From positions 62,001 through 126,000 of the forward strand of contig NZ_JAHLPY010000002.1 of NCBI RefSeq assembly GCF_018918155.1: a stretch of 64,000 nt of DNA, read 5' to 3'. Shown piece by piece: positions 27,266 through 31,066 of the stretch. The stretch's first letter is position 1. Each line of letters starts with the position of its first letter. Origin of the DNA: Anaerostipes sp. MSJ-23. GTDB taxonomy: Bacteria > Bacillota > Clostridia > Lachnospirales > Lachnospiraceae. The notes under the pieces were generated by a model, which worked only from the letters and a program-made list of their open reading frames with translations, was not told the origin of the DNA and made no database searches. The position numbers and the translations under genes are program-made.

Positions 27266-27955
27266 ATGGAAAGACAAAAATTAAACGAAATTCAGGCAGT
27301 CGTTTTTGATCTGGATGGTTTGATGTTTGATAGTGAGCGCTATGTACAAAAATCTTGGGATCTTGCGGGAGAAGCGATGGGATATGGTCCCCTAGGTCAT
27401 AATATCGAACATACTCTTGGTTTAAATGTACAAAACAGAGAGAAATATTTTAAAAAGAACTATGGAGAAGAATTTCCTTTTGAAAAATTTCTTGATACAT
27501 ATCGAGCGGCTTATCAAAAATTAATAAAAAAAGAACAGGTTCCGGTAAAAAAAGGCTTATATGAGTTGTTGGATCTTCTAAAAAAGTATAAGATAAGAAG
27601 AGCGGTTGCAACTTCATCCAGCGGACAATACGTGCATTCGAATCTTGAACGAGTTCATATTTCACAAAGTTTTGATGCGGTGATTACAGGAGATATGGTA
27701 GAGCATGGGAAACCTGCACCGGATATTTATGAGAAAGCGTGTGAACAACTGCAGATTCATCCATCGAAGGCGATTGCTCTTGAGGATGCTCCAAACGGTA
27801 TTGAATCAGCTTATAAAGCTGGATTAATGCCGGTGATGATACCAGATCTTGTAAGAGATACAAAAAAGGTTGACTGGATGCTTGCAGGAACTTATGATTC
27901 TTTGCTCGACTTTGCCAGAGTATTACAGGAGGTTTTCGATGGAAAAGAAGCTTAA
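27266..27955 (+). CDS. HAD-superfamily phosphatase, beta-phosphoglucomutase-like
   Basis: A 229-residue HAD hydrolase of subfamily IA. Motif I is VFDLDGLMFDSE (nucleophile and acid/base Asp), motif II is VATSSSGQY, motif III Lys is in GKPAPDIYEKAC and motif IV is ALEDAPNGIESA. An alpha-helical cap lies between motifs I and II. Substrates in this family are sugar phosphates or similar metabolites. The gene's last 17 bases overlap the start of the next small gene. Confidence 0.88.
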   Translation: MERQKLNEIQAVVFDLDGLMFDSERYVQKSWDLAGEAMGYGPLGHNIEHTLGLNVQNREKYFKKNYGEEFPFEKFLDTYRAAYQKLIKKEQVPVKKGLYELLDLLKKYKIRRAVATSSSGQYVHSNLERVHISQSFDAVITGDMVEHGKPAPDIYEKACEQLQIHPSKAIALEDAPNGIESAYKAGLMPVMIPDLVRDTKKVDWMLAGTYDSLLDFARVLQEVFDGKEA

Positions 27956-28130
27956 AAGTGCAGGATGTGAATATTGTAGTAATTATGTCTATGACGAAGA
28001 TTATGAATATTATGTATGTGAAGTAAATCTAGATGAAGATGAAATGGCAAGATTTATGAGTTATAGCGACTGGGACTGCCCGTATTTTCAGATGGATGAT
28101 GAGTATGCGATCGTTAGAAAGCAAATGTAG
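27939..28130 (+). CDS. Small acidic Cys-containing protein, DUF6472-like
   Basis: A 63-residue protein starting at ATG 27939, with AGGAGG (27927-27932) just upstream, inside the end of the HAD gene. CEYC (12-15 region), a later Cys in 'YYVCEVNLDEDEMARFMS' and Cys in DWDCPYF could together bind a metal ion. The strongly conserved-looking 'dEDEMARF' and 'CPYF' fit the clostridial DUF6472 family, whose function is unknown. Very acidic. Translationally coupled to the phosphatase gene, followed 14 bp later by the aminotransferase. Confidence 0.75.
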   Translation: MEKKLKSAGCEYCSNYVYDEDYEYYVCEVNLDEDEMARFMSYSDWDCPYFQMDDEYAIVRKQM

Positions 28131-28144
28131 GAGGATTTTGTAAT

Positions 28145-29362
28145 ATGGATAAATTTGAAAAATCATCAAAACTGGATCATGTCTGTTATGATATCCGTGG
28201 ACCAGTTATGGATGAAGCAAACAAGATGATCGCAGAAGGAATCGATATTTTAAAATTAAATATCGGAAATCCGGCACCATTTCAATTTATGGCACCGGAT
28301 GAAATTGTACAAGACATGATGATGAATTTGCGTGATACGGAAGGTTATTCTGATTCAAAGGGTCTGTTTTCTGCAAGAAAAGCGATTATGCAGTATTGTC
28401 AGTACAAAAATATTCCAAATGTAGATATCAATGATATTTATACAGGAAATGGGGTTAGTGAACTGATTACGATGTCAATGCAGGGGCTTTTAAATCCTGG
28501 AGATGAGATTCTGGTTCCTTCTCCAGATTATCCATTATGGACAGCTTCTGTAACACTGGCAGGTGGAACTGCTGTACATTATATGTGTGATGAAAAGGCT
28601 GAGTGGTATCCAGATATTGAAGATATCCGCAAAAAAGTAACGCCAAGAACCAAAGGGATTGTTGTCATTAACCCAAATAATCCAACAGGTGCATTATATC
28701 CAAAAGAAGTTCTTAATGATATTGTACAGGTGGCAAGAGAACATGGACTTCTATTATTTGCAGATGAAATTTATGATCGTTTGGTAATGGACGGACAGGA
28801 ACATACAGCTCTTGGATCTTTAGCCCCAGATCTTATGGTATTGAATTTTAATGGTTTATCAAAGTCTCATAGAATTGCAGGTTATCGAAGTGGATGGCTT
28901 TGTCTGAGCGGAGATAAATCGAAAGCCAAAGGTTATATCGAAGGATTGAACCTATTATCCTCGATGCGTCTTTGTGCAAATGTTCCGGCACAGTCGATTA
29001 TTCAGACCGCACTTGGAGGACCGAAAAAGACTGACGAAGCATTGCTTCCGGGAGGAAGAATCTATGAACAGCGAGAATATATTTATAATGCCTTAAATGA
29101 TATCCCTGGTATCTCTACGGTAAAACCAAAGGCTGCATTTTACATTTTCCCGAAAATTGATGTTGAGAAATTTAATATTCATGATGATGAGCAGTTTGTG
29201 TTGGATTTCCTGAAGGAAAAACATATTCTTTTAACACATGGTGGAGGATTCCATTGGGAAAAACCAGATCATTTCCGAATTGTTTATCTGCCAGATCTTG
29301 ATCAATTAAAGAAAGCATGTAAAGGACTTGGAGATTTTCTTGCAGATTATCATCAGGCGTAA
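28145..29362 (+). CDS. Class I/II aminotransferase, alanine aminotransferase-like
   Basis: A 405-residue PLP enzyme of the AlaA/AlaT group (pyruvate + glutamate <-> alanine + 2-oxoglutarate). Seen: 'LKLNIGNPAPFQFMAPDEI' at the N-terminus, 'YTGNGVSELITMSMQGLLNPGDEIL' (in part), 'VINPNNPTGALY' with the Asn that contacts PLP, 'LLFADEIYDRLVMD', and the Schiff-base lysine in GLSKSHRIAGYRSGW. The C-terminal 'FRIVYLPDLDQLKKA' has the substrate-carboxylate Arg. Length is normal. Preceded by AGGAGG. It is followed by a long structured non-coding stretch. Confidence 0.88.
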   Translation: MDKFEKSSKLDHVCYDIRGPVMDEANKMIAEGIDILKLNIGNPAPFQFMAPDEIVQDMMMNLRDTEGYSDSKGLFSARKAIMQYCQYKNIPNVDINDIYTGNGVSELITMSMQGLLNPGDEILVPSPDYPLWTASVTLAGGTAVHYMCDEKAEWYPDIEDIRKKVTPRTKGIVVINPNNPTGALYPKEVLNDIVQVAREHGLLLFADEIYDRLVMDGQEHTALGSLAPDLMVLNFNGLSKSHRIAGYRSGWLCLSGDKSKAKGYIEGLNLLSSMRLCANVPAQSIIQTALGGPKKTDEALLPGGRIYEQREYIYNALNDIPGISTVKPKAAFYIFPKIDVEKFNIHDDEQFVLDFLKEKHILLTHGGGFHWEKPDHFRIVYLPDLDQLKKACKGLGDFLADYHQA

Positions 29363-29388
29363 ATTTCACAAGAAATAAGAAATGAAGA

Positions 29389-29542
29389 AACGGCCATCTT
29401 CTGTCTTAATAAGATAAGGCAGAAGGTGGCCGTTCTCACCTCTGGAAAAGAGGAACCGGAGATCTAAGGGGGAATCTCCGGTTATTATGAAAAAGTATGA
29501 AAAAAAGTTCTAACAAGATCCGCTGGCTATCGTCTCTTGTTA
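29389..29542. other. Cluster of four consecutive hairpins (possible structured RNA)
   Basis: Hairpin 1 is a 15-bp stem, 29389-29403 with 29420-29434 (one G-U pair). Hairpin 2 is CCTCT/AGAGG with a GGAAA loop (29439-29453). Hairpin 3 is AACCGGAGAT/ATCTCCGGTT (29454-29463 with 29474-29483). Hairpin 4 is TAACAAGA/TCTTGTTA (29511-29518 with 29535-29542). None has a clear T tract. They lie between the aminotransferase stop and the promoter of the aromatic-leader transcript, so they are probably the 3' end of the upstream transcript or an independent RNA. Bases 29543-29661 are AT-rich with nothing recognisable. Confidence 0.55.
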
Positions 29543-29661
29543 TAGATATAGTATAACCTGAAAATGTGAAAAAGTTGTGAAGAAAATGATATTTTTTTAT
29601 AAAAAAAATTCGAATTTATAGAAAAAAATTATTATAGTTATAAATTTCTTCTATGAAACTA

Positions 29662-29690
29662 TTGACATTCTATGCTATATACGATATTGT
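29662..29690 (+). promoter_or_regulatory. SigA-type promoter of the aromatic leader/aroF transcript
   Basis: TTGACA (29662-29667), 17-bp spacer, TATTGT (29685-29690). Transcription would start near 29697, about 10 bases before the leader's ribosome site. Confidence 0.75.
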
Positions 29691-29719
29691 AAGATTATCA
29701 AAAGTAGGAGTTATGGAAA

Positions 29720-29827
29720 ATGCTGACAAAACAGATGACAAATTGCGCATACTATTTTTACTTTCAGGGTTATTATTTTTATCCTGAATCTTTTTGTTGC
29801 AATGAATCATCGCCAGGAAGCAGATAG
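29720..29827 (+). CDS. Tyr/Phe-rich leader peptide
   Basis: A 35-residue peptide from ATG 29720 to TAG 29825-29827, with AGGAG at 29706-29710 spaced 9 bases before the ATG. Residues 10-25 read AYYFYFQGYYFYPESF: ten aromatic residues (six Tyr, four Phe) in the 15 codons 11-25. An earlier ATG at 29713 is in another frame and is too close to the ribosome site. The peptide is followed by a terminator and by the DAHP synthase gene. This is the layout of a ribosome-mediated attenuator in which stalling at Tyr/Phe codons reports scarcity of charged tRNA. The last ten codons overlap one strand of a predicted antiterminator. Confidence 0.85.
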   Translation: MLTKQMTNCAYYFYFQGYYFYPESFCCNESSPGSR

Positions 29828-29870
29828 CTTCGAACATATTTAGAGAAAATATAAGGCATGCATTCTTGCA
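29798..29870 (+). promoter_or_regulatory. Predicted antiterminator of the aromatic attenuator
   Basis: TGCAATGAATCATCGCC (29798-29814), inside the leader ORF just after the last Phe codon, can pair with GGCATGCATTCTTGCA (29855-29870), the 5' arm and loop of the terminator, through GCC/GGC, AT/AT, GAAT/ATTC and TGC/GCA with small bulges. A stalled ribosome at codons 11-25 would leave it free; a ribosome at the stop codon would cover it. A small GAAGC/GCTTC hairpin (29817-29831) lies between. Confidence 0.65.
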
Positions 29871-29895
29871 CAGAATGTATGCCTTTTCCTTTTTG
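29853..29895 (+). terminator. Attenuator terminator upstream of aroF
   Basis: AAGGCATGCATTCT (29853-29866) pairs with AGAATGTATGCCTT (29872-29885), 14 bp with one G-U pair, loop TGCAC, followed by TTCCTTTTT. It stands 58 bp before the aroF start and 25 bp after the leader stop codon. Confidence 0.85.
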
Positions 29896-29943
29896 GAGTT
29901 TGTCAGACATCTGTGGAGAGTGCATAAAGAAAAGGAGTACATT

Positions 29944-30951
29944 ATGATTATTATTTTAAAAAAGCAGGCAGAAGAAAAACGGGTTGATGCACTAAAGCAG
30001 GAAATGGAACAGCAGGGACTTTCTATTCATGAATCGAATGGAGAAAATACAAGAATTCTTGGATTAGTAGGAGATACATCCATTGTGGATATGCGTCATA
30101 TTATGGCGAATGATATTGTGGAAAATGTGCAACGAATTCAGGAACCTTACAAAAAAGCAAATCGTAAGTTCCATCCAGATGATTCGGTAATTGAAGTTGG
30201 AAATGTAAAGATTGGCGGAGGAAATTTTGAGGTCATTGGAGGACCTTGTTCGATTGAATCCAAAGATCAAATGATTGAAGTTGCACAGAAAGTCAAAGAA
30301 GCAGGCGCTGGGTTGCTTCGTGGAGGAGCTTTCAAACCACGTACTTCCCCATACTCTTTCCAGGGACTTCATGGAGACGGATTAAAACTTCTTTTGGAAG
30401 CAAAAAAAGCAACAGGACTTCCAGTCGTTACAGAAATTATGGATGCTAGTCACCTTCCTTTATTTGAAGATGTAGATTTAATCCAGGTTGGAACAAGAAA
30501 TATGCAAAACTTTGAATTATTAAAAGAGCTTGGTAAAATTGATAAACCAATTCTTTTAAAACGAGGAATGGCAAGCACGATTGAAGAATGGTTAATGAGT
30601 GCAGAATATATTATGGCTGGTGGAAATGAAAAAGTAATTCTTTGTGAACGTGGAATCCGTACCTATGAGACAGCAATGAGAAACACGCTGGATCTTTCTG
30701 CAATTCCAATGATTAAAAAGAAATCTCATTTGCCAGTTATTGTAGATCCATCGCATGCAACAGGAATCCGTGAGATGGTAGAGCCGATGTCTCTTGCAGC
30801 AATTGCGGCTGGTGCAGACGGACTCATGATTGAGGTTCATAATGATCCCGCAAAAGCTCTTTGCGATGGTCCACAGTCTTTAACACCAGAAGCATTCAAA
30901 AAATTAATGGAAAAAGTAAAGAAAACAAGAACATTTTTCCAGTCTTTATAA
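29944..30951 (+). CDS. aroF: 3-deoxy-7-phosphoheptulonate (DAHP) synthase, type I-beta
   Basis: A 335-residue enzyme for the first step of the shikimate pathway, condensing phosphoenolpyruvate and erythrose 4-phosphate. Residues 1 to about 70 form a ferredoxin-like regulatory domain as in Thermotoga-type DAHP synthase, in which it mediates Phe/Tyr feedback. The catalytic barrel follows: 'VIGGPCSIESKDQM' with the metal-binding Cys, 'LLRGGAFKPRTSPYSFQG', 'KPILLKRGM', 'VIVDPSHATG' with metal His, and 'LMIEVHNDP' with the last ligands. ATG 29944 follows AAAGGAG. Allosteric domain and Tyr/Phe leader would give control at both enzyme and transcript level. Confidence 0.95.
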   Translation: MIIILKKQAEEKRVDALKQEMEQQGLSIHESNGENTRILGLVGDTSIVDMRHIMANDIVENVQRIQEPYKKANRKFHPDDSVIEVGNVKIGGGNFEVIGGPCSIESKDQMIEVAQKVKEAGAGLLRGGAFKPRTSPYSFQGLHGDGLKLLLEAKKATGLPVVTEIMDASHLPLFEDVDLIQVGTRNMQNFELLKELGKIDKPILLKRGMASTIEEWLMSAEYIMAGGNEKVILCERGIRTYETAMRNTLDLSAIPMIKKKSHLPVIVDPSHATGIREMVEPMSLAAIAAGADGLMIEVHNDPAKALCDGPQSLTPEAFKKLMEKVKKTRTFFQSL

Positions 30952-31038: not shown

Positions 31039-31066
31039 CCCGGGAATCAAATGGTTCCCGGGTCTT
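31039..31066 (+). terminator. Probable terminator after aroF
   Basis: CCCGGGAA (31039-31046) pairs with TTCCCGGG (31055-31062), extended by A/T pairs, followed by a weak TCTTAAGT tail. It stands 88 bp after the aroF stop and 54 bp before pth. Confidence 0.55.

Follow-up and report, generated by a model that had tools for sequence, protein, structure and literature searches.

How does Anaerostipes sp. MSJ-23 decide whether to transcribe aroF, the gene for a type I-beta DAHP synthase, when a short open reading frame crowded with Tyr and Phe codons and an intrinsic terminator both lie between the promoter and the gene? In Clostridia, the genes for aromatic amino acids are usually thought to be under other kinds of control. 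The locus lies in a stretch of 64,000 nucleotides (the window, whose coordinates are used throughout). The reading that we favour, at a probability of about nine in ten, is that the aroF leader acts as a ribosome-mediated transcription attenuator that senses charged tRNA-Tyr and tRNA-Phe. The anatomy of the leader and the co-variation of its stems come directly from computation; from these we infer ribosome stalling, tRNA sensing and read-through. The features concerned are as follows:

29662..29690, + strand: promoter TTGACA-17-TATTGT (from the sequence and its recurrence in the genus and at leader loci)
29706..29710, + strand: Shine-Dalgarno sequence AGGAG of the leader ORF (from the sequence)
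29720..29827, + strand: leader peptide ORF of 35 codons, with ten Tyr/Phe (from the sequence and the comparison of upstream regions)
29733..29748, + strand: segment 1, the protector, directly 5' of the first Tyr codon and able to pair with segment 2 (from the fold and a pairing test on 120 loci)
29750..29794, + strand: Tyr/Phe codons, as YYFYF (29750-29764), YYFY (29771-29782) and F (29792-29794) (from the sequence)
29798..29814, + strand: segment 2, the 5' strand of the antiterminator, coding for the NESSP region of the leader (from pairing tests)
29855..29870, + strand: segment 3, the 3' strand of the antiterminator, comprising most of the 5' arm of the terminator and part of its loop (from pairing)
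29853..29895, + strand: intrinsic terminator with arms 29853-29866 and 29872-29885 and a T-rich tail to 29895 (from a scan and the genus alignment)
29944..30951, + strand: aroF, type I-beta DAHP synthase of 335 aa with a ferredoxin-like regulatory domain (PF00793, PF18152, NF006421, TIGR01361)

The elements from which the initial annotation had built its proposal are all present in the sequence, namely a leader ORF (MLTKQMTNCAYYFYFQGYYFYPESFCCNESSPGSR) with ten Tyr/Phe among codons 11-25, a ribosome site, and a terminator with a T-rich tail that is followed by aroF, whose ATG is at 29944. The terminator (29853-29885) consists of 14 pairs, then TTTTCCTTTTTG, and its hairpin ends about 50 nt 5' of the aroF ribosome site. 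The segment at 29798-29814, which had been picked out as a partner of the terminator, does form 15 pairs with 29855-29870. In the window, aroF is followed by pth (PF01195), and the Tyr/Phe mix of the leader is balanced there. Two additional hairpins, at 29454-29483 before the leader (terminator-like on the minus strand) and at 31040-31063 after aroF, suggest that the leader and aroF form a separate transcription unit. Farther upstream, positions 27870-28127 encode a small protein with a DUF6472 domain (PF20076), which precedes an aminotransferase gene (28145-29362). At curated scores, Rfam gave no match in the window, and the sub-threshold matches around the leader belong to unrelated families. 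The Rfam leader families, such as those of the proteobacterial Phe and His leaders, likewise gave no match at curated scores, and a search of 20 related loci returned tRNAs only. Among the models of Pfam and NCBIfam, none matched the leader peptide.

The proposed mechanism would operate as follows. Transcription would start near 29697, as judged from the position of the promoter, and a ribosome would load on the leader. When Tyr-tRNA or Phe-tRNA runs low, this ribosome is expected to stall on codons 11-21, where it would cover segment 1 or block its re-pairing and leave segment 2 free. Segment 2 (29798-29814) could then pair with segment 3 (29855-29870), so that the terminator would come too late and aroF would be transcribed. 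If both tRNAs are charged, the ribosome would reach the stop codon and cover segment 2, and the terminator (29853-29885) would form. With no ribosome loaded, segments 1 and 2 might pair with each other and termination would be favoured, though weakly in this species.

We collected the regions upstream of aroF relatives by one scan that kept the best 80 loci, by searches at the levels of genus, family, order, class and phylum, and from fetched stretches. Among the best 80 loci, the closest aroF is that of a Lachnospiraceae MAG (90% identical), and the nearest named record is Anaerostipes hominis (83%). Each region was scored by the count of Tyr/Phe in the best 12-codon window of a short ORF. 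The initial set of 280 distinct upstream regions (350 nt) was without 34 aroF regions whose start was not aligned by tblastn (restored later), L152, six duplicates and regions with less than 200 nt upstream. In this set, 139 regions have at least 7 Tyr/Phe in 12 codons, compared with 0 on the reverse strand and 2.8 in each dinucleotide shuffle; with a threshold of at least 6, the numbers are 167 of the 280 regions, 10 on the reverse strand and 9.0 in the shuffles. After restoration of the distant rows, 179 of 313 regions scored at least 6 within 400 nt. A terminator scan, which had no chance control, was positive for 161 of these 179 candidate leaders; 159 of the 161, with a segment length of 25-160 nt, were kept, and L041, L076 and L155 were added by eye to make 162. 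Under these criteria, a leader (score of at least 6) with a terminator is found in 162 of the 313 aroF upstream regions (159 by scan, 3 by eye), and 151 regions are without leader.

The leader is present in 11 of the 11 sampled genomes of the genus and, among the rows outside the named records, in 44 of 67 family codes (summed over kinship classes). As for the named records, it is found in 45 of 69 Clostridia, 4 of 6 Bacillota without class and the single Tissierellia. It also occurs in one Coriobacteriales MAG and one Flexilinea (Chloroflexota) MAG, where binning errors are possible. No leader was found in the one MAG labelled Planctomycetaceae (L070), a contig whose aroF is Clostridia-like (69% identical), perhaps through a binning error. 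At one locus (L021:2501-4566), a tandem pair of aroF genes lies behind a single Tyr/Phe leader. Upstream of aroF in L006, L007, L013, L015 and L028 we observed short Tyr-rich ORFs that stay below the threshold (e.g. YAKYYYVLY), and L006 has tyrA behind aroF; these ORFs are possibly Tyr-only leaders.

We also looked for leaders before other genes. In 80 genomes, a profile of 25 leaders yielded five matches with E<1e-9, all directly before aroF, but all five are the profile's own rows; the next match (E 3e-4) appears to be antisense to a Lys-rich gene. The profile missed leaders already found in other genomes of this set (e.g. L097 and L115), and its sensitivity is therefore too low to rule out leaders at other genes. 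A five-codon TWY pattern gave 236/196 matches in the window's genome versus 309/222 for the pattern read backwards, and it was dropped. Around pheA and tyrA of the window's genome, no short ORF reached 6 Tyr/Phe in 12 codons; one of 21 codons, with 5 Tyr/Phe, ends about 30 nt before tyrA. Similarly, inspection by eye detected no Tyr/Phe leader upstream of the second DAHP synthase of this genome (type I-alpha, AroFGH-like; L002:331-1402). The strand opposite this gene carries a putative FMN riboswitch before a RibU-like gene.

The leader is probably translated, and transcribed from its own promoter, as judged from the signals that accompany it. A Shine-Dalgarno sequence of at least 4 bases precedes 135 of the 159 leaders but only 21 of 159 control starts. 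The promoter proposed in the initial annotation is borne out by its recurrence: TTGACA with a 17-nt spacer is found in all 11 of the 11 genus members, and 119 of the 159 leader loci have an upstream promoter that deviates at no more than 2 positions, compared with 3.3% of shuffles. Taken alone, the stretch 29300-30300 has 3 promoter-like sites for 4.4 expected, which is not above chance. Pairwise comparison of the 11 genus leaders gave 181 synonymous versus 361 non-synonymous single-base differences in their codons, and the signal was only weak, so these counts were set aside as support for the leader.

Three pairings make up the putative switch. In the genus alignment of 11 sequences, the terminator (3:4) covaries: it is 94.8% paired, and 7 of its 14 pairs have changed on both sides. 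For the antiterminator (2:3) of the genus, which joins 29798-29814 to 29855-29870 and has three more pairs on its 5' side, the paired share is 87.0%. Both partners have changed in 5 of its 18 pairs, and sliding the stem by 1-3 columns makes it worse. Three of the 18 pairs are poorly kept, being unpaired in 5/11, 4/9 and 7/9 of the sequences, and the 'further pair types' in the same alignment are not above shuffles.

Across loci, pairing was assessed by swapping arms between them. For 2:3, the 60 nt after the Tyr/Phe run were set against the terminator arm and loop of the same locus; in 159 loci, the mean energy is -13.2 kcal/mol with the own partner and -9.45 (sd 0.18) with swapped ones, and 0 of 1000 permutations reached the own value. 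In the control stretches it was reached by 228 of 1000 permutations for the Tyr/Phe run, 169 of 1000 for the upstream stretch and 428 of 1000 for the downstream stretch (n=132), and the reversed-sequence control lies somewhat below its permutations (-9.60 vs -9.02, 1/1000). When segment 2 was paired with the 5' arm of the terminator alone, the signal was weak (mean z -0.53); with the loop added, it was strong (mean z -1.74). For 1:2, the stretch used began 20 nt ahead of the leader start and stopped 6 nt short of segment 2, so that the segments did not overlap; in 120 loci, own partners give -13.1 and swapped ones -10.4 (sd 0.23), with 0/1000. A similar result is obtained when this stretch stops where the Tyr/Phe run ends (-11.8 vs -8.9, sd 0.22, 0/1000), and the controls are borderline upstream (51/1000) and null downstream (307/1000). 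Own-partner pairing that beats swapped pairing indicates that 2:3 and 1:2 are maintained in cis across loci. The comparison thus supports the attenuator that had been proposed at the outset: leader ORF and competing stems are conserved, the opposite of the outcome that would have counted against it.

The spacing of these segments would suit a stalled ribosome. The median distance from the last Tyr/Phe codon in the densest window to the start of segment 2 is about 16 nt (both in 106 strong loci and in 120 loci). Segment 2 mostly ends near the leader stop codon, and the median ends of segment 1 are -16 and +2 around the first Tyr/Phe codon. Ribosomes were modelled as masks, placed on a transcript that stops at the terminator loop. 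The predicted antiterminator probability with the mask at the first Tyr/Phe codon exceeds that with the mask at the stop codon by more than 0.2 at 102 of 159 loci and is lower at 4. With the mask at the last Tyr/Phe codon versus the stop codon, it is higher in 72 and lower in 7 of 159, and for the first Tyr/Phe codon versus no ribosome, it is higher in 70 and lower in 3 of 159. In the window, the model predicts antiterminator probabilities of 0.77 for the first codon, 0.63 for the last (codon 21), 0.06 for the stop codon and 0.65 with no ribosome; this last value points to a weak protector in this species. The Phe codon 25 (29792-29794) is only 3 nt 5' of segment 2, which a ribosome standing on that codon would cover, so that a regulatory stall would have to occur at codons 11-21. 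In the full-length RNA at equilibrium, the terminator is predicted to form in every state (0.91-0.97 in the window), and the switch must therefore be kinetic if it operates as proposed. Known attenuators do decide kinetically.

The amino acids encoded in the run vary with the genes behind aroF. Among the 159 leaders, the mean Tyr fraction is 0.50 where the next recognised gene is tyrA (69 loci) and 0.13 where it is pheA (8 loci; Mann-Whitney p 7e-6). Runs without Tyr, as judged by the densest 12-codon window of the leader and not by the whole peptide, were counted in a set of 165 leaders with up to about 2.2 kb downstream; it consists of the 159 and L041, L076 and L155, together with L177, L184 and L292, which were added without inspection. 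Such runs are present in 5 of 11 leaders with pheA and absent from all 97 with tyrA, from all 54 that have neither gene downstream and from the 3 whose downstream sequence was too short (Fisher p 5e-7 for pheA versus tyrA and neither together). All five leaders without Tyr in their run have pheA, of the Phe branch, behind aroF; for one of them, L186, pheA came to light once the downstream sequence was fetched. Pfam identified a prephenate dehydratase behind these five and behind L118, L131, L308 and L134, and for the other class it identified a prephenate dehydrogenase in nine examples. Placed on the aroF tree, the link between pheA and codons amounts to 5 independent pairs only, of which 4-5 are as predicted and 0 against (p 0.0625-0.125). 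This is suggestive, although not proof, of a codon mix that follows the branch gene.

We think it probable that these leaders represent one widespread, unannotated attenuator family, found across Clostridia and at one MAG locus each under the labels Chloroflexota and Coriobacteriia, and that its Tyr:Phe ratio has been retuned by evolution to the branch gene of the operon. If true, one could read from the codons of an unannotated leader which amino acid its operon serves. Sensing of a third amino acid is possible as well; by raw count, 41 of 161 leaders have a Trp close to the run of Tyr/Phe. In L131, L134, L135, L136, L288 and L291, Trp lies within the run itself (SWGYFYF-like). To the extent that comparison can tell, the classical leader logic invoked in the initial annotation holds, and it is refined by the 1:2 protector, by codon 25, which would be unusable for the stall, and by a codon mix that varies with the operon.

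Could the peptide rather than the decoding rate be what is sensed? In a TnaC-like mechanism, the nascent chain would arrest the ribosome in response to free Tyr or Phe, in place of the slow decoding that a lack of charged tRNA brings about. Among 25 selected leaders, a Gly that hardly varies and a recurrent FCC-like stretch could be taken as marks of such a peptide. However, Tyr and Phe interchange and no residue is invariant in the 25 rows; the region conserved in the genus after the run overlaps an RNA pairing segment, which can explain its conservation, and the Tyr-less runs before pheA fit the counting of codons. We regard arrest of this kind as very unlikely. The small ORF might also encode a functional aromatic-rich peptide and be followed by an ordinary, constitutive terminator. 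The ORF does show signs of translation in its Shine-Dalgarno sequence, but the RNA segments favour partners of the same locus in cis, their distance from the codons suits a ribosome, and the composition of the peptide follows the operon, which leaves this idea barely plausible.

Attenuation by stalling on Tyr and Phe codons would coexist in the window's genome with T-boxes at other genes. Nine T-box matches were found in this genome, eight of them above the curated score; none of the nine is at aroF, and RF00230 has no match at the locus. Judged by eye from the protein sequences encoded nearby, their sites are apparently near leuA, trpE, pheST, thrS, ileS, aspS, a cys locus and two transport-type genes. 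In the relatives, a pattern search detected a T-box motif ahead of aroF for 6 of the leaderless regions and for no leader row. Rfam searches of 20 leaderless loci identified a T-box directly before aroF in 5 (L143, L198, L212, L214 and L297); in leaderless L300, a T-box is located about 600 nt upstream of aroF. It seems from these distributions that tRNA sensing at aroF has been exchanged between leader and T-box in some lineages. The same T-boxes might lead one to view the leader as a relic, with aroF controlled mainly by translation initiation, a protein or another riboswitch, but the locus has no curated-score Rfam match, its hairpin has a T-rich tail and ends some 50 nt before the aroF ribosome site, and covarying stems are maintained in the genus, all of which makes this the least credible alternative.

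The favoured attenuator and the T-box have the same input, tRNA charging. A T-box reads one specifier codon and needs no leader ORF; a mixed leader can presumably respond to either tRNA, unlike a single T-box with its one specifier codon. Aromatic regulons of low-GC Gram-positive bacteria were reportedly treated by Panina in 2003. T-boxes are treated in PMC2494555, and Actinobacteria in PMC1262725. The pheL, trpL and hisL leader-peptide attenuators of Enterobacteria, as summarised in PMC11802643 and PMC9413887, share with the aroF leader the runs of cognate codons, the 1:2, 2:3 and 3:4 pairings and an intrinsic terminator before a biosynthetic gene. The aroF leader differs from them in that it precedes a type I-beta aroF, mixes two amino acids about equally, occurs mostly in Clostridia and has a segment 3 that includes the terminator loop.

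Two further leaders, one of them a candidate, have been described for aroF. Corynebacterium glutamicum aroR (Neshat 2014, as described in PMC11802643) is a leader with a Phe-Tyr-Phe peptide upstream of an operon with the DAHP synthase gene aroF, and stalling on it enhances transcription. It differs in belonging to Actinobacteria, in having one FYF motif and in reportedly responding to limitation of Phe, not Tyr. uORFC-13-1, a candidate uORF upstream of aroF, contains Phe codon(s), is accompanied by a terminator and has been proposed as an attenuator (PMC8632094). It comprises 24 sequences of Acholeplasma and environmental origin only, with at least one Phe codon (PMC8632094). In our searches of the open PMC literature, these two, the Acholeplasma candidate uORF and C. 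glutamicum aroR, are the only leaders for aroF that we found. The same searches of open PMC papers turned up no Tyr/Phe leader described before aroF in Clostridia.

The initial annotation had considered a stalling leader noteworthy in Firmicutes. Stalling leaders had, however, already been proposed in that phylum, according to PMC2965389, PMC9413887 and PMC5794164. They include His leaders in the Bacillus cereus group, Peptostreptococcaceae/Lutispora and Erysipelotrichales (PMC9413887) and in Bacilli (PMC2965389), and the Ile/Leu leader of Staphylococcus aureus ilvD (PMC5794164). They have in common with the aroF leader the proposed stalling of ribosomes, some of them replacing T-boxes, and they differ in serving other amino acids and operons in narrower lineages.

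Judged from the sequences compared here, the Tyr/Phe leaders before aroF appear to be a family that is widespread and undescribed, although its kind is well known. This family would give gut and environmental Clostridia a large class of regulatory RNA not listed before, and it would show that leader-peptide attenuation can be common, not exceptional, in Firmicutes. It would also show one leader reading two tRNAs where a T-box reads one, with a codon mix that may predict the function of the operon.
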